A DNA stretch of 64,000 bases, taken from assembly GCF_001305595.1 (NCBI RefSeq), contig NZ_CP012402.1:99501-163500 (forward strand), in the 5' to 3' direction. A program made the position numbers and the translations under genes. Source of the stretch: Azospirillum thiophilum. Its GTDB lineage: Bacteria; Pseudomonadota; Alphaproteobacteria; Azospirillales; Azospirillaceae. Shown one piece after another: positions 7,573 through 45,855 of this stretch. A model generated the notes under the pieces. That model had not been told where the DNA came from and searched no databases. It worked only from the letters and a program-made list of their open reading frames with translations. Position 1 is the first letter of the stretch. Every line of letters begins with the position of its first letter.

Positions 7573-8029
7573 GCACCGTCCCGCCGCAGCGTCACCGCCC
7601 CCCGCATCGCGGGAACGGTGGCGCCGCGGCGGGGCTTCCCAACTCTCCAATTGAACCGCGGGCTGTCGCTCCATATCGCCCGCGGCGGCCGGCTCCCCCG
7701 CTCCCCCGCCGCCCTGGAAGGGAAACGCGGGCCGAGCCGGGCGAATCCGTAGGGGCTGGGTTTGATTTGACGCAATGCCGCAAAACGCATTGCCGGTCTA
7801 TGCTTGAGCCTGGTGGTCGATCTGGTTGACGCTTTGCCCTCCGCCCCGACGGCGCCGCCCCCAGGAACCAATCCTCCATGGTGGCACACAGGCGCCCCTT
7901 CCCCCGCCCGCCGGGGGAAGGCCGGGTGGCCGGGCGGAACGCTCGCTCGTCCTCGTCGACTGGCAATGTCGGCAACGCATCCGTCTCCTCCTCTGCGGAA
8001 GCGTTCCTCCGTTCACTTCCCCGCTTCGG
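7573..8029. other. 457-bp gap without a supported gene
   Basis: The gap lies between the ALDH stop and the xdhC stop (convergent genes). No open frame here has coding-like composition or family resemblance. It holds one stray iteron (7657-7677) embedded in a CCGCGGGC-N14-GCCCGCGG dyad, and a 10-bp-stem hairpin at 7897-7921 (ccttcccccg/cgggggaagg). The latter could end transcription from either side but lacks a T-run. Confidence 0.6.
7657..7677 (-). repeat. Isolated copy of the replication iteron
   Basis: CGCGGGCTGTCGCTCCAT (7657-7674) is an exact 18-base match to the reverse complement of the iteron at 37549-37569. It sits in the largest gene-free gap of the left half, about 30 kb from the iteron arrays. 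It also lies inside a CCGCGGGC...GCCCGCGG dyad (7656-7685). It would be a natural distant binding site for the RepA encoded at 38021-39283. Confidence 0.7.
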
Positions 8030-8868
8030 TCAGGCTGGCATGAAGACTGACGGAACCTTCGCGAACGCCACCAGCAGTTCCGCCGCGACCAGGGCCGCGA
8101 TCACCTCCGGCCGCTTGTCGCCGGTCAGCGCCGCGCCGACCGGGCAGGTCAGCCCGTCCAGCGCCCCGGTGTCGCGGTCACAGTCCCGCGCCCGCGCCCG
8201 GAACCGGCGCTCGAACTTCGCGCGCTTGGTTGCCGAGCCGATCATGCCGACATAGGCCGCATCGCCCCGGCGCAGGGCCGCTTCGGCGATCTCGAAATCC
8301 AGGGCATGGCTGTGGGTCAGCACCAGATAGCCGGCCCCGGCCGGGGCGTCGGCCAGCGGGTCGAGCGGACTGTCGGTCAGGATGCGCTCCACCCCCGGCG
8401 GGATCGCGGCGGGGAACTCCTGCGCCCGGCCGTCGATCCACAGCAGGCGTAGCGGCAGCGGCGCGAAGGCCGTCGCCATCGCCCGTCCGACATGGCCGGC
8501 GCCGAACAGCAGCAGTACCGGGCGCGCGTCGGCGGCGCGGCACTCGCGTTCCCCCAACGCCGCGGCGGTCTCCCGCCCGGCGCGCTCCAGCCGCAGCACG
8601 ACATGGCCGCCACAGCATTGGCCGGTGGCGGGGCCGAGCGGCAGGTCGAGCGTCTCCTGTGCGCCGCCCTCCCCGATCATCCGGCGCGCGGCGGCGATGG
8701 CCGTCCATTCCAGCCGGCCGCCGCCGACCGTGCCGGCGCAAGTCCGCCGGCCGACCAGCATCCCGGCGCCCACCTCCCGCGGGGTCGAGCCGCGCGCCTC
8801 TGCCACCGTCACCAGCACCGCCGGCTCGCCGCGCGACAGCCAGTCGGCGAGGGTTGCGGACAGCAGGG

Positions 8869-11398: not shown

Positions 11399-11412
<14 letters not shown>

Positions 11413-12871
11413 GCCTCCGGTCGCCGGCCAGACGGGTGTCCGCCGCCGGATCGCTGGTCTCGATATGGAACTTCATCAGCAGATTGGCGGCGACCATGGA
11501 GCGATAGCCCGCGCTGGCCCGCCAGTCGCTCAGCGGCGTGAAATCGCCGGACAGCGCCGCCATCGCCTCTCGCACCGTCTCCTCGCTCCAGTCCCGGCCG
11601 CGCAGTGCCGCCTCTGCCCCGGCGGCCCGCCTGGGCGTGCCGGCCATGCCGCCGAAGGCGATGCGGATGTCGGCGACCCGGCCGTCGGCGTCCAGCCTGA
11701 GGCGGAAGGCGCCGCAGACGGCGGAGATGTCCTGGTCGAAGCGCTTGGCGATCTTGTAGGCGCGGAAGCGCTCGCCAGGCCCCGGCTTCGGCAGGATCAC
11801 CGCCTCGACGAATTCGCCCTCGCGGCGGTCCTGCCTGCCGTATTCGATGAAGAACGCCTCCAGCGGCAGCTCGCGCGTCTCGTCGCCACGCCGCAGCCGC
11901 AGGGTGGCGGCGCAGGCGATCAGGGCCGGCGGGGTGTCGCCGATCGGGGAGCCGTTGGCGATGTTGCCGCCGATGGTGCCCATGTTGCGTACCTGCTCCG
12001 CCCCGATGCGGCGGATCAGCTCGCCGAAATCGGGATAGAGCGCGGCGATGGCGGGGGCGGCCTCGCTGTAGGTGACGCCGGCCCCGATCACCAGAGCGTC
12101 GCCGCGATCCTCGATCCGCCGCAGGGCGCCGACCCGGCCGGTATGGATCACCGTCGCCAGCACCCGCTGGAACTTGGTCACCCACAGCCCGACGTCGGTG
12201 GCGCCCGCCACGATGGTCGCACCGGGGTGGTCGAGCAGGAGCTGCGCCAGCTGCGGCACCGTCGCCGGGGCGAGGAACCGCCGCCCGCCGGTCCCGACAT
12301 CGAGGATCTCCTCGTCGCGCAGGGCCTTCAGCCTGTCCGCCCAAGCCTCGCGGTCGGCGAAGCGGTCGCTCCCTTGGCCGCCGATCCCGTACATGGCGTG
12401 CGCCGCCCGGACGATGGGGGCATAGCCGGTGCAGCGGCACAGGTTGCCGGCCAGCGCGTCGTCGATCCGCCGGTCGTCGGGCTTCTCCTCGTTCAGGTAG
12501 AGCGCCAGCAGCGACATGACGAAGCCCGGCGTGCAGAAGCCGCATTGCGAGCCGTGGCAATCGACCATCGCCTGCTGCACCGGATGCAGGGCGCCGTCCT
12601 GACCCTTCAGATGCTCGACCGTCAGCAGCAGGCAGCCGTCCAGTGTGGCGAGGAAGCGGATGCAGGCGTTCACCGCCTCGTAGCGCACCGCATCGCCGTC
12701 CAGCCGGCCGACCACCACGGTGCAGGCGCCGCAATCGCCCTCGGCACAGCCTTCCTTGGTGCCGACCCGCCGTTCCGACAGCCGCAGCCAGTCGAGCACC
12801 GTCAGGGTCGGATCGACATCGCCGATCTCCCGAAGCTCGTCGCCGAGATAGAAGCGGAGGCGCTGGCGCAT
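11399..12871 (-). CDS. xdhA: Xanthine dehydrogenase small (FeS/FAD) subunit
   Basis: The 490-residue protein has two [2Fe-2S] domains (first cluster GCAEGDCGACTVVVG plus NACIRF; second QCGFCTPGF and NLCRCTGY) within residues 1-160, a FAD domain (IVAGATDVGLW; MGTIGGNIANGSPIGDTPPAL) and a CO-dehydrogenase flavoprotein C-terminal domain. It passes electrons from the molybdenum site of XdhB to NAD. Start choice is supported by GGGAG six bases in front of the ATG. It is the first gene of the xdhABC operon; a long inverted repeat lies upstream at 13035-13076. Confidence 0.95.
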
Positions 12872-28510: not shown

Positions 28511-29278
28511 TCACATGCCCAAATACGCCTGCCGCACCTCGTCGTTGCCGAGCAGGTCCTGGCCACTGCCCTCCATCACGACGCGGCCGGTCTGGATGAC
28601 ATAGCCGCGGTCGGCGATCTCCAGCGCACGATGGACGTTCTGCTCGACCAGCAGCACGGTGATGCCGCGTTGGCGGATCAACTGGATGGTCTCGAAGATG
28701 CGGGTCACCAGCTTGGGCGCGACGCCCCAGGAGGGTTCGTCGAGCATCAGCAGGTCGGGTTGGCTCATCAGGCCGCGGCACATCGCCAGCATCTGCTGTT
28801 CGCCGCCCGACAAAGTGCCGGCCTGCTGGCGGCGGCGTTCGCCCAGCACGGTGAAGGTGTCGTAGGCGAATTGGAGCGTTTGCTCGCGTTTGGCCGCATC
28901 GCTGGTGGTGAAGCCGCCCAGCATCAGGTTCTGCTCGACCGTCAGGCGCGGGAACAGGCGGCGGCCTTCCGGCACCAGCACCAGCCCGCGCTTCACCCGC
29001 TCATGGGCGGGAACGGCGGAGATGTCCTGCCCCTTCAGCATGATGGTCCCGCCGTCGAGCGCGTTCAGCCCGGCGACGGCCCGCAGCGTGGTCGACTTGC
29101 CGTTGCCGTTGCCGCCGACGATGGCGACGATCTCGCCCCGGTTCAGGCTGAGGCTGACGTCGCGGATGGCCGGGACGCGGCGGTAGCTGGACTGGATGTT
29201 GCGGACATGGAGCATCGGCTCGCCATGGACTGCGGCCGGTACGGGGCGGACGGGTTCGGACAGCATGGGTTGAAGCAT
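28511..29278 (-). CDS. livF: LIV-type ABC transporter ATPase, LivF-like
   Basis: The 255-residue protein has Walker [10 protein letters not shown], signature [16 protein letters not shown] and Walker [14 protein letters not shown], and the LivF-type loop [15 protein letters not shown]. It is one of two ATPases for a hydrophobic/amino-acid-type importer. About 20 residues precede the usual start ([11 protein letters not shown]), so an internal ATG is possible. It starts 4 bp after livG. Confidence 0.92.
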
Positions 29279-34494: not shown

Positions 34495-35064
34495 TCATTC
34501 CTCGCCGTCAAGCACCGCCAGCTCGGCCTCGATCACGGCCAAACGCTCGCGCAGCCGGTCGCGTTCCGCCTCCAGTGCCTCCCGGCGTCCGACATGGTCG
34601 ATCGCCTTGTTCCGCAGGTCGCGCTTGAAGCGGACGATTTCCGGCCGCGTGACGTCGGGACGGATCAGATTGCTCTGGTCGGCCAGCCGCAGCTGTTCGG
34701 TGGTCAGGGTGGCGAGCTGATAGACGGTGGCATAGCTCGGCGGCAGCTTCGCTCCCGGCAGCCGGCCGCTGTCGACCGCCTCCGCCACCATGCGCAGCTG
34801 GTAGGCCACCTGATAGCCGAAGGGCAGCTCGTTCTCGACCATCGCCTGGAACTCGCCATGCGGCAGCCGCACCCGGGCCTGGACCAGATAGCGGCCGATC
34901 AGCAGGAACTTCTCCTGCGCGCTGCGCCACAGGGTGGAGATCTCCTGCACGAACTCCTCGCGCCGCAGCAGGTCGATGGGAGCCTCGGCCATGCGCTCGA
35001 TGCGTTCGTCCACCGCCATGTGGCGGCGGGCCTGCGCCTTGGAAACCTGCTTGAACCCGCTCAT
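34495..35064 (-). CDS. ParA-partner protein, DUF3102-like
   Basis: The 189-residue protein is coupled to parA by an ATGA overlap, in the place where parB normally sits. It has no ParB N-terminal or HTH motif. The centre (EKFLLIGRYLVQARVRLPHGEFQ, LPFGYQVAYQLRMV) resembles DUF3102 proteins found on phages and plasmids. The end is a charged coiled coil (REALEAERDRLRERLAVIEAE). A role as DNA-binding adaptor for ParA is inferred from position and coiled coil only. Confidence 0.75.
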   Translation of the reverse strand: MSGFKQVSKAQARRHMAVDERIERMAEAPIDLLRREEFVQEISTLWRSAQEKFLLIGRYLVQARVRLPHGEFQAMVENELPFGYQVAYQLRMVAEAVDSGRLPGAKLPPSYATVYQLATLTTEQLRLADQSNLIRPDVTRPEIVRFKRDLRNKAIDHVGRREALEAERDRLRERLAVIEAELAVLDGEE

Positions 35065-35747
35065 TGCGCCAGCTCCAGTTCGTGACGGACAAAGGCCCAG
35101 ACTCCGGCGACATGCTCGGACCCCTTGCCGCCCTTCAGCTCCAGCAGGCCGAGCCCGCGCCCGGCGGTGAACTGGATGTCCTCGTAATCCGGGACCTCGA
35201 CCGGGCAGATCCGGCCGTCGCCCAACAGCTTGCGCTGCGCTTCGGTGAATCCCCGGGTGCGCGGCTTGACGCGGTTCATGACGAAGGCAGCGTTCTTGCC
35301 GTAGCGGCGGACGAAGCGCATCCAGGGCCGGACCGAATCCAGGTCGTCGTCGCTCTGGCCGGTCGGGACCACGATCAGGTCCGACGACAGGGCCAGCAGC
35401 TTGAACTCCTCCGGATGGTCCTCGATCGACGGCGGGGTGTCGATGACCAGCAGGTCGAAACCGTCGATGCCATTCAGCGCGTCGCGGATGTCGGACGAAC
35501 TCATGCCCGCTTCGAAATGGGTGATCGACACCATACCGTCCGGACGCTTGGCGAACCATTTGGTCAGGCTGCGCTGCGGATCGAGATCGAGTGTCGCCAC
35601 CGTGCAGCCGTCGAGCGCCGCCGCGACCGCGATGTTGCGGCTGAGCGTGGTCTTGCCGACCCCGCCCTTCGGGCCATTGACCAGCAGGCGCTTCACCTGT
35701 CGGGTCCGCAGCCTGTTGCCGGGCTCCTGTCCCGTCTCGTCGGTCAT
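35061..35747 (-). CDS. parA: ParA-family partition ATPase
   Basis: The 228-residue protein has the deviant Walker A NGPKGGVGKTTLSRN, Walker A' LDLDPQRSLTKW and Walker B LLVIDTPPSIED. It lacks an N-terminal HTH, so it is the small ParA type and needs another protein for DNA binding and autoregulation. The start at 35747 follows GGGACAGGACG; an ATG at 35768 is an alternative. Upstream lie three stacked palindromes (35812-35868). It should segregate this replicon with its coupled partner. Confidence 0.9.
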   Translation of the reverse strand: MTDETGQEPGNRLRTRQVKRLLVNGPKGGVGKTTLSRNIAVAAALDGCTVATLDLDPQRSLTKWFAKRPDGMVSITHFEAGMSSSDIRDALNGIDGFDLLVIDTPPSIEDHPEEFKLLALSSDLIVVPTGQSDDDLDSVRPWMRFVRRYGKNAAFVMNRVKPRTRGFTEAQRKLLGDGRICPVEVPDYEDIQFTAGRGLGLLELKGGKGSEHVAGVWAFVRHELELAQ

Positions 35748-35811
35748 CGTCCTGTCCCTTTCCGCCATAGGCTGTCGGCGTCTTTTAGCAAAGCGCGGCC
35801 GTGGCGCAAAC

Positions 35812-35868
35812 CTAAGACATGTCTTAGCTTCATATCCCCGGCGCCGGGTATCGCATCCGTCACGGATG
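35812..35868. promoter_or_regulatory. Three stacked palindromes upstream of parA (operator or centromere candidate)
   Basis: CTAAGACATGTCTTAG (35812-35827) is a perfect 16-bp palindrome, CCCGGCGCCGGG (35837-35848) a perfect 12-bp one, and CATCCGTCACGGATG (35854-35868) has 7-bp arms. They fill the spacer between parA and the loader-like gene. The first is A/T-rich for this genome. Small ParA systems often keep the centromere/operator here. Confidence 0.5.
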
Positions 35869-35895
35869 GACGGGTGCAAGACAGAACATTCCCCA

Positions 35896-36558
35896 TCATC
35901 GCATGCGGCGCACCGCCGACGCCAGCACCGGGCGTACCGCAGCCGCCCCTGCTCCGCCATCGCCGGTCCGGTCGCCTGCGGTTGCAATCGCGCGCAACCG
36001 GTCGGCCAGACCACGCTCTGCCGTGCAGGCCTCCTCGCACAGGGCACGGATCTCGGCGATGCTCGGCCGCCATTTGCGGGTGCGGCGCCAAATGCGCGCC
36101 GCCTGGTCGATCGCCCAGGCCGGAAACTCGCCCAGATCGTCTGCCCAGTCCATCGCGAGCAATTGCTCCACCTCCGGCGTCGTCGCCTTGGCCGGGAAAT
36201 GGCTCAGCAGGGCCAGCACGCGGCCAAGCAGATGGTTGGCCGGTGCCGGTGCCAGGATACCGTCGTCGATCTCCGCCAATGCCCGGCGGGCAAGCGCGGC
36301 GTGGCGCGGCGTCACCTCGTCCGGCGGCGTCCACTCCTCCACCACGCCGGCAAAGCCGTCATCGGTGAAGCGGCTGTGCCGTCCGACCTGCCCCCCGTCG
36401 AGCAGCCGTTGCAACGCTTCCGGCAACGCCTCGCGCAGCATCCGGCTGCGCAAAGCCGGCGGCATGGCCGGGTCGAAGGGCAACGGCAGGCTCGGGGCCG
36501 GCGCTCCGGCCGCGGATCCGGGGAACGACGATCCGGGGAACGGGTGCAGGTTGCTCAT
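35896..36558 (-). CDS. Replication-locus protein, possible helicase loader (lambda P-like)
   Basis: The 220-residue protein has no certain family. A Pro/Ser/Gly-rich N-terminus of about 40 residues is followed by a helical region with LGEFPAWAIDQAARIWRRTRKWRPSIAEIRAL, a pattern seen in phage and plasmid replication proteins that follow an initiator gene. It is coupled to the HTH/DnaT-like gene by ATGA overlap. Together the pair resembles lambda O/P or DnaT-type primosome partners; this is inference from pattern and position. Confidence 0.6.
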   Translation of the reverse strand: MSNLHPFPGSSFPGSAAGAPAPSLPLPFDPAMPPALRSRMLREALPEALQRLLDGGQVGRHSRFTDDGFAGVVEEWTPPDEVTPRHAALARRALAEIDDGILAPAPANHLLGRVLALLSHFPAKATTPEVEQLLAMDWADDLGEFPAWAIDQAARIWRRTRKWRPSIAEIRALCEEACTAERGLADRLRAIATAGDRTGDGGAGAAAVRPVLASAVRRMR

Positions 36559-37394
36559 GCCGCCCCCCACGGGTTGGCGGCTGTGTTGGCGGCTGTACCA
36601 CCGGCAGGTGACTGTCCGTTCAGCCTTGCCGCGACGCTGGCCCAGGCCGACAGGCGTTGTTCGGCATCCACCGCCGGACGGGATTGGCTGCGGGGGGCAT
36701 GGCGTGGCGCAGGACCGGCCGCGCGGCGGTCCGCGCCGTTCCCGCTTTGCAGCCCGGCACGTGCCATATCCTGCAGCAGCCATGACCGCCATGCCGCTGC
36801 CGCATCACGGTAGCGGTAGCCGTGGGCACGGCATTGCTGCACGAAGCGCTCGGCATGCCGGTCGACGTCGACGGTTGGAAAGCGATCCTGCGCCCACTGC
36901 CGATCCTCGGCGGACGGCACCCAGTCTTGGGCGACCTGCTCGCTTTCGCCGGATCGGGCCTTGCCCGTCCGCAGGTGGAGCGTGTCCGGAATCTGTTCTG
37001 ATTCAGGCTGTTTCTGACTCGCTGCCGGACAGGGGGAGTCCGCCCTTGAGTCAGCGGGGATGTCCGCCCCTGCACCCCCCGTCGCAGCCCCTTGCGGTGT
37101 GGTCAGGACGAGCCGGTAGCGGCAGCTCAGCCGGCCGCCGTTGGTGGCGCGGCGATGCTCGATCGTCACCAGCCCCAGCGACTCCAGCCGTCCCAGGATC
37201 CGGTTGACGGTCGGGCGGCTGCGTTTCAGCTTGTCGGCCAACGTCGCCTGTGACGGCCAGCAGATCCCGGCCTCGTCGGCATAGGTGCTGAGGGCGGCCA
37301 GTACGGCGAGGCCGTCGGCGTCGAGATCGGGGTGGTCGAGCCACCAGGCCGGGATTCGGCCCCAGCGGTTTGGGTTTGCGGTATGGTCGGTCAT
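36555..37394 (-). CDS. HTH_36/DnaT-like replication protein
   Basis: The 279-residue protein has an N-terminal winged helix (residues of about 10-85: IPAWWLDHPDLDADGLAVL, CWPSQATLADKLKRSRPTVN), a low-complexity linker, and a C-terminal segment (W..SAEDRQWAQDRFP... AAAAWRSWLL) like the DNA-binding end of phage O and DnaT-type proteins. It starts about 80 bp from the first iteron and runs away from repA, so it may bind the origin and recruit helicase with the next gene. Function is inferred. Confidence 0.7.
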   Translation of the reverse strand: MTDHTANPNRWGRIPAWWLDHPDLDADGLAVLAALSTYADEAGICWPSQATLADKLKRSRPTVNRILGRLESLGLVTIEHRRATNGGRLSCRYRLVLTTPQGAATGGAGADIPADSRADSPCPAASQKQPESEQIPDTLHLRTGKARSGESEQVAQDWVPSAEDRQWAQDRFPTVDVDRHAERFVQQCRAHGYRYRDAAAAWRSWLLQDMARAGLQSGNGADRRAAGPAPRHAPRSQSRPAVDAEQRLSAWASVAARLNGQSPAGGTAANTAANPWGAA

Positions 37395-37472: not shown

Positions 37473-37766
37473 CGCGGGCTCCGGCTCCATGGAGCATCAG
37501 CCCGCGCACCGTCAGCGATAGCCCGCGACCGTAAAGCCCCGGCCCGCGACCATGGAGCGACAGCCCGCGATGCCGTCCCGAATCGGGATCCTGGCGTCTT
37601 TGGCCGCGGTCATGGAGCAGTAGGCCGCGATTGCCGCCTGCCATTGAGCGGCCATTCCTGGAGTTTTAGCCCGCGTTTCCCCCGGCGCGCCGCCTTGGCC
37701 GGCCGCAAAGACGGTATGGCGGCGGTAGCGAGCCGGCCGGGCTTCCCCATGGAGCGATGGCCCGCG
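37473..37766 (+). repeat. Iteron array I: seven forward copies plus one reverse copy
   Basis: The 21-bp units share the core CATGGAGCnACAGCCCGCG. Forward units: 37486-37506, 37507-37527, 37528-37548 and 37549-37569 (four in perfect tandem register), then 37609-37629, 37655-37675 and 37746-37766 at irregular spacing. A reverse unit at 37473-37493 overlaps the first forward one, making a CGCGGGCT...AGCCCGCG dyad. The second and third units are degenerate in the left half but keep GCCCGCG. The length of about two helical turns is typical of initiator-binding iterons. Confidence 0.85.
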
Positions 37767-37857
37767 GTTCCCCGGCCGGCTGCCGGTGCCGATTCTCCCC
37801 GATTCTTCAGGGAGTCGCGGCGCCCGCTCCCCTGCGCGGAGCTCCCCTCCGGCCAAT

Positions 37858-37941
37858 CGCGGGCTATGGCTCCATGATCGCGGGCTGCGGCTCCATCACC
37901 GCGGGCTGTTGCGCCATGGGCGCGGGCTGTTGCTCCACGCC
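37858..37941 (-). repeat. Iteron array II: four reverse copies in tandem
   Basis: Four 21-bp units at 37858-37878, 37879-37899, 37900-37920 and 37921-37941, all in the opposite orientation to array I, each beginning CGCGGGCT. They end 79 bp before the repA start, in the position expected for autoregulation of the initiator gene. Confidence 0.88.
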
Positions 37942-38020: not shown

Positions 38021-39283
38021 ATGTCCAAGATGGCCCCGACCAGCGCCGCACAGCTCATCCTGTTCGAGCTGGAAGACCGTTCGCAATCACACCTGATCGC
38101 GCTCTACGATCTGGCGCCGCGCTTCGTCTTCGTCTCCCGCGACAATGACAAGGAGAAGGTGGCGAAGGACAAGGGCGAACTGGTCACCAAGGACAGCTTC
38201 ATAAAGTCGGTGCGGCGCGAGTTCGCCTTCCGCGGCCGCAACTACCGCCTGACCGTGCAGCCCGCCCGCATCGACCGGCTGGGGCCGGCGAAGAAGGACG
38301 ACCGCGCTCCCGGCGCAGGCCCGGATCTGGTCGAAGTGGAGATCTTCCCGTCGGAGCGCGAGCAGGTGGTGGAACAGGTGGTCCGTCGCCTCGCCATGGA
38401 CCGCTCGCGCCTGTCGCTCACCGGCGAGAACCGCGACAAGGTGCAGATGCGCTTCAGCCTCTACGAGATCCAGCGCGAGCTGCGGGCTGTCAGCCACACC
38501 CTGTCGATCCAGGACATCCGCGAATCGCTGACCATCCTGGCCCGCTCGCGCATCATCATCTCCACCGGCGGCAGTGCAGAGGCCGGGAAGAAGAACCGCG
38601 GGCAGAATTTGCTGGAATCGACAGCCTTTCCGGTGCTGGCGATCCGTTCGCGCCCCGATCTGGTCGACGAGGATGGCGGAGTCGAGGAAACCTATCTGGA
38701 ATTCAACCCGCTGGTCTCCGCCGCGATCCGCGACCTGGAATTCAAGCCGGTCTCCTATGCCTGGCTGATGAAGCTGAAGTCGCCGGTGTCGCGCTGGCTC
38801 TACAACCGCCTGTCGATCGAATACGACACGGCCGAGGACGATGCGAGGCCGGTGTCGATCAGCGCCGACGAGATCATCAAGAACAGCGGCATGAACGAGT
38901 GGTCGCGCCGCCGCGACACCCTGCGCGTGGTGACCTCAGCCGTCGATGCGCTGGTGGAGGAGGGGATCCTCGACGTCGCCGACAAGGAATACACCAAGGT
39001 CGGCAAGCGCATCGACGCCATCGACTATGTGCTGACGCCGTCGGCGAAATTCCTCGATCAGGTCCGCCGCGGCCGGCGGGTGCAGACCACCAACATCGAT
39101 CTGCTCAAGCAGATCGTCGGCAATGCCATGCGTCCCGACGGCTTCGTGCCGCTGAAGGCAGGCGAGGCGGCCGACATGCGCAACAAGCGGACCAAGCGTC
39201 TGGCCGGTTCCTCATCCGATCCGGGGACCGGCCGGGCCGACAAGCCCCCGGCGCAGGCGGTCTTGCCGCTGCCGAGGAAATAG
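38021..39283 (+). CDS. repA: RepA-type replication initiator
   Basis: The 420-residue protein starts at an ATG with GGAG six bases upstream. The middle and C-terminal parts carry winged-helix-like segments (LYEIQRELRAVSHTLSIQDIRESLTILARSRIIIS; SRRRDTLRVVTSAVDALVEEGILDV) like plasmid RepA/RPA initiators. The iteron arrays directly upstream strongly support an iteron-binding initiator. It converges with the PAP2 gene 4 bp away. A longer in-frame extension upstream would only translate the iterons. Confidence 0.82.
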   Translation: MSKMAPTSAAQLILFELEDRSQSHLIALYDLAPRFVFVSRDNDKEKVAKDKGELVTKDSFIKSVRREFAFRGRNYRLTVQPARIDRLGPAKKDDRAPGAGPDLVEVEIFPSEREQVVEQVVRRLAMDRSRLSLTGENRDKVQMRFSLYEIQRELRAVSHTLSIQDIRESLTILARSRIIISTGGSAEAGKKNRGQNLLESTAFPVLAIRSRPDLVDEDGGVEETYLEFNPLVSAAIRDLEFKPVSYAWLMKLKSPVSRWLYNRLSIEYDTAEDDARPVSISADEIIKNSGMNEWSRRRDTLRVVTSAVDALVEEGILDVADKEYTKVGKRIDAIDYVLTPSAKFLDQVRRGRRVQTTNIDLLKQIVGNAMRPDGFVPLKAGEAADMRNKRTKRLAGSSSDPGTGRADKPPAQAVLPLPRK

Positions 39284-39287
39284 CGGA

Positions 39288-39911
39288 TCAGCGCGGCAGC
39301 AGGCGCCGCGCCAGCAGGGTGATCGCCGTTCCCAGCAGGGCACCGGCCAGCACGTCGGACGCCCAATGGCGGTGCTTGGTTACCCGCCCGCCGGCCAGCG
39401 CCGCCGCGGTGCCGTAGATCATCAGGCTCTGTGCCGGCGACCGGCTGACCGTGGCGAGCGCGGTCGCCGCGGCGAAGGCGCTCGCCGCATGGCCCGACGG
39501 CAGGGACCGCGCGCTGATGCGCCATCCCGGTTTGCGGCGCGGGGCGCATTCGTCCGGACGGCGGCGTTTGACATAGCGCTTGATCGAGCGGCTGGCGGCG
39601 GCGGTGGCCACCAGCCCGGCCACGCCGACGCTGCCGGCGCGGCGCAGATCCGCACTCCCGGACAGCAGCCCGACGATGCCGGCCACCGCGAAGCCCGGGA
39701 TCAGGACGTGCCGCTTTATGGCGTAATGGCCCGCGGTTGCCAGTGCGCGGCTGACCGGGCCGGGATCGCAGGTGACGATGTCGTGGACCTGGGCATCCAG
39801 CGCATCGACGGCGGTCAGGGCGGGCCGGAGGAGTGCTGGTGCCGGATTGCCGCCATAGCCGAAGCCGCCGCCCGGATTCTCGATGCCGTTCTGTTCGATC
39901 AGGTCGCTCAA
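39288..39911 (-). CDS. PAP2-family membrane phosphatase
   Basis: The 207-residue protein shows the three phosphatase motifs: KRYVKRRRP, the PSGH box, and RVTKHRHWASDVLAG (motif 3 with the nucleophile His in HWASD). Hydrophobic segments lie near residues 65-85, 90-110 and 145-200. PAP2 enzymes remove phosphate from lipid phosphates such as undecaprenyl pyrophosphate. No partner gene is adjacent; it lies between repA and hut. Confidence 0.85.
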   Translation of the reverse strand: MSDLIEQNGIENPGGGFGYGGNPAPALLRPALTAVDALDAQVHDIVTCDPGPVSRALATAGHYAIKRHVLIPGFAVAGIVGLLSGSADLRRAGSVGVAGLVATAAASRSIKRYVKRRRPDECAPRRKPGWRISARSLPSGHAASAFAAATALATVSRSPAQSLMIYGTAAALAGGRVTKHRHWASDVLAGALLGTAITLLARRLLPR

Positions 39912-40823: not shown

Positions 40824-42373
40824 CGTGCCGTCTCCAAATCAACCGGCATCAGATGGTCGAGCGCGCCGTTGCGGACAAGCCCGCCGATGGCGGCCAGATC
40901 CGGGGCGAAGTAACGGTCGACCTCGTAGCGCGGCACCTCGGCGCGGATGGTGGCGATGGCCTGCTCCAGCCGAGCCGAGCTGGTCAGCGGCCGGTGGAAC
41001 TCCAGCCCCTGAATCGCGGCCAAAAGCTCTATGCCGACGATGTCGGCGACATTGCCCGCGATGTCGCCCAGCCGGCGCGCCGCGAAGGTCGCCATGCTGA
41101 CATGGTCCTCCTGGTTGGCGGAGGTCGGCAGGCTGTCGACGCTGGCGGGGTGGGCGAGGCTCTTGTTCTCCGACGCCAGCGCCGCCGCGGTGACATGGGC
41201 GATCATGAAGCCGGAATTCAGCCCCGGTTCCGCCACCAGGAAGGGCGGCAGGCCGCTGATGGTGGTGTCGATCAGCATGGCGATGCGCCGTTCCGACAGC
41301 GCCCCGATCTCCGACGCGGCGATGGCGAGCTGGTCGGCGGCCATCGCCACCGGCTCCGCATGGAAATTGCCGCCGGACAGCACCTCGTCGGTGTCGACCA
41401 GGACCAGCGGGTTGTCGGTGACGCCGTTCGCCTCGATGGTCAGGGTGCGCGCCGCCTGCCGCATCTGGTCGAGCACGGCGCCCATCACCTGCGGCTGGCA
41501 GCGCAGGCTGTAGGGGTCCTGCACCCGATGGCAGTCGGGGCCCTGGTGGCTGGCATTCAGGGCGCTGCCCGCCAGGGCCTCGCGGAAGGCGGCGGCGACG
41601 GCGATCTGGCCGGGCTGTCCGCGCAGCGCGCTGATGCGGGCGTCGAAGGGGCGGTGGCTGCCCTTGACCGCCTCGACCGCCAGGGCTCCGGCGACCAGCG
41701 CCGCCTTGAAGGTGCGCTCGATCTCGAACAGTCCGGCCAGCGCCAGCCCGGTCGACACCTGGGTGCCGTTGATCAGCGCCAGCCCTTCCTTGGCCTTCAA
41801 CTCGAAGACGGCCAAGCCGGCGATGCGCAGCCCCTCTTCCGCCGGCAGGGTCTCGCCCTTCACCCGGACATGGCCGATGCCGAGCAGCACGCCGCACAGA
41901 TGGGCCAGCGGCGCCAGATCGCCCGACGCACCGACGGAGCCCTTGCCCGGCACCACCGGCAGCACGTCGGCCTCGTAGAGCTTCAGCAGCGCATCGACCA
42001 GCGCCGGCCGGACGCCCGACGCGCCGACGGCGAGGCTCACCGCCTTGATCACCAGGATCAGCCGGACCACCCCGTCGGCCAGCGGCGTGCCGACGCCGGT
42101 GGCGTGCGACAGGATCAGGTTGCGCTGCAGCTTTTCCAGATCGCTCGCCGCGATGTGGGTGTGGGCCAGCTTGCCGAAGCCGGTGTTGACGCCGTAGACC
42201 GGCTCGTCGCCGCCGGCGATCCGGTCGATCAGCGCGCGGGACCGCTCCATCCGCGGATAGGCCGCCGGGTCGAGCGCCAGGGCCGGACGGTCGCGGTAGA
42301 TGCTGCGCAGCGTGTCGAGCGACAGCGCGCCCGGAACCAGGGTGGCCACAGCAGAGTTGGTATCGTCGCTCAT
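40820..42373 (-). CDS. hutH: Histidine ammonia-lyase
   Basis: The 517-residue protein contains the MIO-forming Ala-Ser-Gly in [15 protein letters not shown] (about residue 150), [27 protein letters not shown] and [10 protein letters not shown]. It turns histidine into urocanate and ammonia. The ATG at 42373 overlaps the hutF stop by four bases; a longer upstream frame is the shadow of hutF. Confidence 0.95.
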
Positions 42374-45112: not shown

Positions 45113-45855
45113 CCGACGCCGTCTCGACCGCCCAGCCGCGCTACGCCCAGATCAAGGAGACCATCCGCCGCCGCATCAGCTCCGGCGACTGGGCGGAGGG
45201 CTTCCAGATCCCGTCCGAGCACCGGCTGCTGGAGGAATTCTCGGTCAGCCGCATGACGGTCCACCGCGCGCTGCGCGACCTGACGGAGGAAGGGCTGCTG
45301 ACCCGCGTCCAGGGGCTCGGCACCTTCGTCGCAGAACGGCCGCCCAGCGCCGACGTGGTGGAACTGCGCAGCATCGCCGACGAGATCGCCGAGCGCGGCA
45401 ACCGCCATGGCTGCCGGATAGAGCGTTTGCTCGCGGTCACCGCCGACGCCGGCTTGGCCCGCCGTTTCAACCTGCCGGCCGGCGCCCGGCTGTTCCATTC
45501 CGTCGTCATTCACAGCGAAAGCGACGTGCCGGTGCAGCTTGAGGAGCGCTGGGTCAACCCGGCGGCGGCGCCCGACTATCTGGAGCAGGACTTCACCCGC
45601 CAGACGCCGGGCGAATACCTGATCCGGCTGGAGGCCGCGCCGCGGGTCGAGCATGTCATCGAAGCGGTGTCGCCGACGCCGGAGATCGCCCGCCTGCTCG
45701 ACATCCCCGTCACCGAGCCCTGCCTGCGCGTCACCCGCCGCACCTGGGCCGGTGGGGGAGCGGGTGCTGGAGGGCGTGTCGTGACGGTGGCGATGCTGGT
45801 CCATCCCGGCAGCCGCTACCGTCTGGGCGCGCGCTTCCAGCTGCCGCCGCCTTAG
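45109..45855 (+). CDS. hutC: GntR-family histidine-utilisation repressor
   Basis: The 248-residue protein has the HutC-type GntR winged helix ([57 protein letters not shown]) and a UTRA effector domain. Urocanate is the known effector in the family. A small Gly/Ala-rich insertion (GGGAGAGG, about 45753-45776) sits in the last strands, where relatives have a tighter turn. ATGA overlap with hutI shows coupling. The likely operator is at 43752-43780. Confidence 0.93.

Follow-up and report, generated by a model that had tools for sequence, protein, structure and literature searches.

Why does a copy of a replication iteron lie 30 kb from the origin, in a gap between genes? The question arises in a 64,000-nucleotide stretch of Azospirillum thiophilum DNA (the window; C2:99501-163500, where C2 is contig NZ_CP012402.1, 1,354,909 bp, a large secondary replicon). 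On its minus strand at 7657-7675 is a 19-base element, TATGGAGCGACAGCCCGCG, whose last 18 bases are identical to the origin iteron at 37551-37569, a match first noted in a sequence-only reading of the window and confirmed here. The element scores 29.3 with a position weight matrix (PWM) whose maximum is 30.6. Our best reading, with a probability of about 0.57, is that this focal site is one of a set of putative extra-origin binding sites for the replication initiator, used for titration or handcuffing. The sequence-only reading had likewise proposed a distant iteron acting on the initiator, and it gains weight because such sites are enriched around the origin.

Iteron cores are confined to one region of the genome

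Within the window, 11 sequences match the iteron with at most three mismatches, whereas 100 shuffles gave 0.32 on average and never more than 2. Nine are at the origin and the other two at 7657 and 11495, the latter not mentioned in the sequence-only reading. A search of all replicons, which the sequence-only reading had suggested, found the exact core TGGAGCNNNNGCCCGCG ten times in the 7.6-Mb genome (eight contigs), always within C2:92183-137437. Seven copies belong to the origin and the others lie at C2:92183, C2:107157 (window 7657) and C2:110997 (window 11497). Allowing TGGCGC as well adds one site, C2:137400, also at the origin, and all 11 TGGMGC-N4-GCCCGCG sites of the genome are confined to 45 kb. 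A reversed control pattern likewise occurs 11 times genome-wide, so the signal is clustering and placement rather than number. Copies do lie inside genes, one half of what the sequence-only reading had listed as counting against its proposal, but they are concentrated near the origin and not scattered at random.

Iteron-like sites inside genes surround the origin

To look beyond exact cores we built a weight matrix from 188 sites in loci around rep (+/- ~1.5 kb), some of them off-origin sites in a helix-turn-helix (HTH) gene, and used it to scan 400 kb of C2 and, in six relatives, 200 kb around rep. Above a PWM score of 11, C2:1-400000 contains 21 hits, ten at the origin, ten in the 92-145 kb interval and one elsewhere, whereas 50 permuted matrices gave a mean of 3.4 hits (largest 18); no score in C2:150-400 kb exceeds 10.7. 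Across 15 close genomes, the window strain included, the 10 kb on either side of the rep start hold 4-7 such sites per genome with the origin excluded, for a sum of 81. Column-permuted matrices find ~0.14 sites per genome (sum mean 2.2, largest 33), and none of 400 permutations reaches the observed count in any single genome or in total. When we repeated the test with a matrix trained on the origin alone, leaving out the HTH-gene sites, the sum was 82 compared with a permuted mean of 3.3 (largest 21), and 0/200 permutations reached it. The window strain has seven off-origin sites in this interval; shuffling synonymous codons among 12 frames near the origin yields a mean of 0.21 and at most 2 in 300 runs. 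Farther than 20 kb from rep, hits fall to 0-2 per 20 kb in the seven genomes with longer stretches. Off-origin sites with a putative initiator-type motif are thus above chance.

Four off-origin sites recur in all 15 close genomes. They lie in the gene adjacent to parA (36154-36172, minus strand, GGTGGAGCAATTGCTCGCG), a PAP2 gene (39717-39735, plus strand, TATGGCGTAATGGCCCGCG), hutH (41015-41033, minus strand, CATAGAGCTTTTGGCCGCG) and hutC (45417-45435, plus strand, GATAGAGCGTTTGCTCGCG, with GGTGGAGCAATTGCTCGCG at this position in many relatives). A fifth recurring site, in the HTH gene, occurs in 12/15 close genomes and is not in the window. The codons under these sites are unusually constant. 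By synonymous identity the PAP2 site ranks 1 of 197 and the hutC site 18 of 227, while the parA-adjacent site ranks 7 of 249 over an open frame (35896-36792) longer than the gene itself (35896-36558). The six core codons of hutH rank 8 of 517 over 20 genomes, and their rare ATA, CTT and TTG codons are unchanged in 21 genomes with hutH at least 88% identical; in nine distant genomes hutH scores at most 9.8. Rare codons are a feature of the inner sites, with ATA making up 3.7% of Ile codons, CTT 4.3% and TTG 6.3% of Leu codons and CAA 12.6% of Gln codons in the 12 frames. We consider it very probable that the inner sites are under selection as sites.

The same sites invite another explanation, that the dispersed copies, several short sites with dyads in genes within ~10 kb of the origin, are parS-like centromere sites for a partition protein working with the ParA-family ATPase (35061-36047, minus strand; an open reading frame whose true start is uncertain), the distal sites being outlying copies. 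The ParA-family gene adjoins the origin, and the perfect dyad GAGCAATTGCTC is present in two inner sites in most close genomes; chromosomes typically have parS clusters close to the origin, in part within genes. Yet the origin iterons and the distal sites fit the same matrix, and a perfect dyad is lacking at the PAP2, hutH and distal sites. The parA-adjacent protein has no ParB match, the rest of the replicon not having been searched for ParB, and four of six genomes in a far group have origin iterons without dispersed sites. We regard a parS role as distinctly unlikely.

Three weaker window sites complete this picture. An iteron-like site in an ATP-binding cassette transporter gene (28870-28888, plus strand, PWM 11.1) is found in five of the ten close genomes whose stretch reaches it. 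Another at 29206-29224 (plus strand, PWM 13.6) occurs in this genome only and is probably due to chance, as is a weak PAP2 site at 39508-39526 (minus strand, PWM 13.8) with low codon conservation and presence in 3/15 genomes.

The off-origin sites are a property of some lineages. A middle group of six genomes has 17 off-origin sites, a number reached by 1/200 permutations; in the far group, also six genomes, the sum is 8 (again reached by 1/200). Two far-group members, G010 and G028, contribute four sites each, three of the four lying elsewhere or having another sequence. The hutC site is missing from G016, G042 and G011, where hutC is at least 30 kb from rep, and hutH keeps its site in these same genomes. 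Separately, G011:C2:425646-428939 carries three iteron-like sites (PWM 14.5-25.2), ~15-18 kb from rep, at positions unseen in the other genomes scanned.

The focal site lies in the scar of a gene

The 457-bp gap holding the focal site separates an aldehyde dehydrogenase (ALDH) stop (7572) from an XdhC gene (ending at 8030). The sequence-only reading called it empty of genes, and it does lack an intact one, but it retains the remnant of one. In A. lipoferum 4B, A. oryzae, G037, G025, G024, G034 and G035, ALDH is followed by a ~410-aa gene with a weak EAL-like match (E = 0.075), in whose intact form the focal bases encode RGLLRHIAR. Window positions 7655-7713 (plus strand) align to 59 positions, 620-678, of the 1233-bp 4B gene. 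They are followed by an orphan copy of the atpD operon leader of A. lipoferum 4B and A. ramasamyi (7736-7929, plus strand; 83% and 81% identity over 196 columns). We read the gap as the scar of the ~410-aa gene. The gene now adjoining the orphan leader is xdhC, on the opposite strand.

Derivation from coding sequence changes how two features are seen. Arms matching the dyad described in the sequence-only reading are present at 7656-7685, with CCGCGGGC (7656-7663) and GCCCGCGG (7678-7685) separated by 14 bases. Both arms are codons of the ~410-aa gene in relatives, the dyad deriving mostly from CGC GGG CTG ... GCC CGC in the lost gene. G027 has a disrupted 3' arm but an intact 19-mer, and we therefore rejected the dyad as a separate element belonging to the site. 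A first impression of a conserved 30-bp noncoding element was dropped because these bases are gene codons in relatives.

It also bears on the idea that an older origin left the site behind, one of two outcomes that the sequence-only reading left open. Strong similarity to the origin iterons speaks for a relic. Against it, relatives carry the same bases within an intact gene and have no origin there, 21 downstream stretches of ~1.5 kb contain no iteron array, and five named plasmids have ordinary genes annotated at the locus. We rejected the relic, for which next to no probability remains. The other outcome, a kept function, is plausible, the 19 bp having survived three apparently separate decays.

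Nineteen bases outlast the gene around them

We compared ~1.5 kb downstream of ALDH in 21 genomes. The gene is intact in five, present as fragments in G018 and G027 and reduced to a small piece, found by DNA comparison, in the window strain; the other 13 stretches have no trace of it at the thresholds used. In this gap comparison, which the sequence-only reading had proposed, three decayed copies keep the 19 bp and 13/21 genomes have no remnant. Near-matches downstream of ALDH include another in G020 (14/16) and those in G013, G031, G041 and G042 (13/16). As an observation on the gene itself, the EAL-like frame beside ALDH (L021:6776-8008 and relatives) is missing or broken in most of these genomes.

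The three decays are probably separate, judging from fragments that differ and from an intact copy in G037 that falls between the lineages on the tree. The surviving fragments of the 4B gene are 1-76, 573-807, 1126-1192 and perhaps 1214-1230 in G018, 277-409 and 620-685 in G027, and 620-678 in the window strain, and positions 622-640 survive in all three. In a four-gene tree of 20 genomes G018 pairs with G037, G027 adjoins this pair and the window strain stands apart (key supports 0.785 and 0.977).

Relative to 4B, the site has changed at 1, 0 and 2 positions in the three decayed copies (3/57), compared with 45/215, 9/47 and 8/37 in flanks taken from local alignments (62/299; Fisher p = 0.0024, on three cases only). 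Leaving out the window strain, which was found through the site, gives p = 0.0028. All three site changes either raise the PWM score or fall in the variable spacer, and scores run from 24.9 (the 4B and G027 form) through 25.6 (G018) to 29.3 (window). We think it fairly likely that the focal site is under selection as a site.

The opposing account holds that the focal site is functionless, a piece of a dead gene that resembles an iteron by chance. Its bases encode part of an intact protein in relatives, and the genome contains as many matches to the reversed pattern as to the iteron pattern itself. Within intact genes the focal site ranks 66 of 369, which indicates no special constraint, and its core is disrupted by synonymous changes in G034 and G024. 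Loss of the gene left no remnant in most lineages: 13 of the 16 genomes without an intact gene downstream of ALDH have neither a gene trace nor the focal site. Set against this are the retention of exactly these 19 bp in three apparently separate decays, with fewer changes than the flanks, and a second, perfect site 3.8 kb away. A rare TTG codon, present in 9/9 rows beside this ALDH (seven intact, two decayed) and 0/6 homologs elsewhere, points the same way, a weak contrast because the nine rows are related to each other. A functionless site is a minority possibility in our estimation, albeit one to be taken seriously.

A second distal iteron and a third core match

The second site, CATGGAGCGATAGCCCGCG (11495-11513, plus strand, PWM 29.9), is a consensus iteron inside the gene for the flavin adenine dinucleotide (FAD) subunit of a molybdenum hydroxylase (11399-12871, minus strand). 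We compared this locus in 30 of 45 genomes, 17 of them close; the A. lipoferum 4B stretch does not extend to the outer sites and enters a count only where we say so. The identical 19 bases occur in G026, G018, G037, G027 and G021, and G035 differs by one change. Weaker forms score 22.6 in G041 and G013 and 11.6-17.0 in G024, G031, G020 and G025, and the site is absent from thirteen more distant genomes. Within the seven genomes holding it the codons rank 42 of 484, weak evidence given that the group was chosen by outcome. The two distal sites tend to co-occur (5/7 vs 1/8, p = 0.04, a statistic that ignores relatedness). As a pair they are nearer the iteron consensus than the inner sites and are kept only in some lineages. 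The third core match scores 17.6 and is found beyond the window, at C2:92183.

The origin and candidate binding proteins

The origin iterons form a cluster at 37473-37939, with one minus-strand copy facing a plus-strand block, followed by four minus-strand copies spaced 21 bp. Ten sites above PWM 11 within this interval beside rep mark the replicon as iteron-controlled. The adjoining gene (38021-39283, plus strand) encodes Rep, a 420-aa putative initiator and most likely the protein that would bind the extra-origin sites. Pfam RPA (PF10134) matches the window Rep at E = 0.051, below its cut-off, with a best value of 0.0012 among 5/16 members. In Foldseek, ranks 2-11 go to RepE or other Rep structures (probability 0.98-1.00, but template-modelling (TM) scores of 0.19-0.37 from a low-confidence model), with more of this kind further down, and rank 1, an RNA polymerase III subunit, was taken as spurious. 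With low confidence, the model suggests that Rep resembles RepE, Pi and similar iteron initiators, which would place it in the tandem winged-helix class.

A second candidate binder of the iterons is an HTH_36, phage O-like replication protein (36555-37394, minus strand). Next to it, the 220-aa parA-adjacent protein that hosts site 36154 (35896-36558, minus strand) has no confident family or fold match; its model has a predicted local distance difference test (pLDDT) score of 81.1 and no convincing structural match. The arrangement at 35896-37394, an O-like protein and a mostly helical one encoded with ParA beside iterons, is reminiscent of a phage O/P pair.

Paralogs of rep on other contigs, L018 (G000:C5:27752-28984) and L019 (G000:C8:46427-47533), are 57% and 47% identical. 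No such iteron in their ~4.2-kb loci scores above PWM 11.9, and these replicons seem to use other sites. C2 itself has roughly double the length of the corresponding replicons in 4B (648 kb), B510 (682 kb) and A. ramasamyi (686 kb), and two replicons may have fused to form it.

A putative copy-control layout

We propose that the extra-origin sites would draw bound initiator away from the origin by titration, or that initiator on them would join them to origin iterons by handcuffing or looping. Because the sites are copied early in a round of replication, they would hold back re-initiation and so set copy number. The layout would comprise an inner ring of four sites inside genes, within ~8 kb of the rep start and conserved throughout the window strain's clade, and the distal pair at 7657 and 11495, which only some lineages retain. 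We infer Rep binding and an effect by titration or handcuffing from the clustering, the codon conservation and the retention of the focal 19 bp. Copies inside genes that evolution has kept suggest that the replicon may regulate its copy number through distant protein-binding sites. A bolder version, which we offer as speculation that is more likely wrong than right, is that secondary replicons of one Azospirillum clade write a copy-control map into their genes, with single initiator sites distributed over coding sequences on either side of the origin and at two outer posts, selection on synonymous codons, sites that outlive their host genes and replicated length gauged by titration.

Several further observations, beyond those favouring a functionless site, weigh against titration or handcuffing at these sites. 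Four of the six far-group genomes (G001, G003, G007 and G008) share the iteron core at the origin but have no off-origin sites, so the sites are dispensable for such a replicon. In G011 hutH retains its site at ~135 kb from rep, and in G002 the hutC and hutH sites are both kept on a contig that does not carry rep, so nearness to rep is not strictly required. In close genomes a seven-codon hutH window reaches only rank 116 of 509. At 11495, ten other close genomes have a weaker site or none, and we found no conservation of the site over all 17, where its codons are variable (rank 440 of 484). Finally, the Rep model is of low confidence (mean pLDDT 50.7).

If the proposal is true, copy control of multi-replicon bacteria could be tested by simple synonymous recoding. 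Sites visible from codon conservation alone would also offer a way to find such sites elsewhere. In the soil bacterium Azospirillum, about 59% of the DNA is on extrachromosomal replicons according to a 2026 survey (PMC13342612).

Comparison with known systems

Among the papers listed in searches on Azospirillum iterons or replication control, none dealt with these replicons. Chromosomal parS clusters are short sites near the origin, some of them inside genes; the Azospirillum motif differs in being the origin iteron, and no ParB is recognised beside parA. In plasmids P1 (incA) and F (incC), additional iterons located beyond the minimal origin reduce copy number through titration and handcuffing. 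Those iterons are arrays next to rep, whereas the Azospirillum sites are single, 1-30 kb away (up to ~130 kb in relatives) and mostly inside genes. The E. coli datA locus consists of DnaA boxes and is not known to contain iterons, unlike the Azospirillum sites. As a locus that titrates DnaA it nonetheless likewise places initiator sites near but outside the origin, where they are copied early, and it is the comparison drawn by the authors who described extra-origin RctB sites (PMC3937223).

Those RctB sites, on chromosome II of Vibrio cholerae, are reported to titrate the initiator and inhibit replication (PLoS Genet 2014, PMC3937223), and RctB has also been mapped by chromatin immunoprecipitation sequencing (PMC11711613). 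The Azospirillum layout fits the same logic. The initiator and the iteron differ, and binding and inhibition in Azospirillum are predicted from sequence. Azospirillum adds an inner ring within genes, with frozen rare codons, and a site that has outlived its gene. Extra-origin initiator sites on a secondary replicon are already known from Vibrio, and Azospirillum would be a second case, in a distant group.
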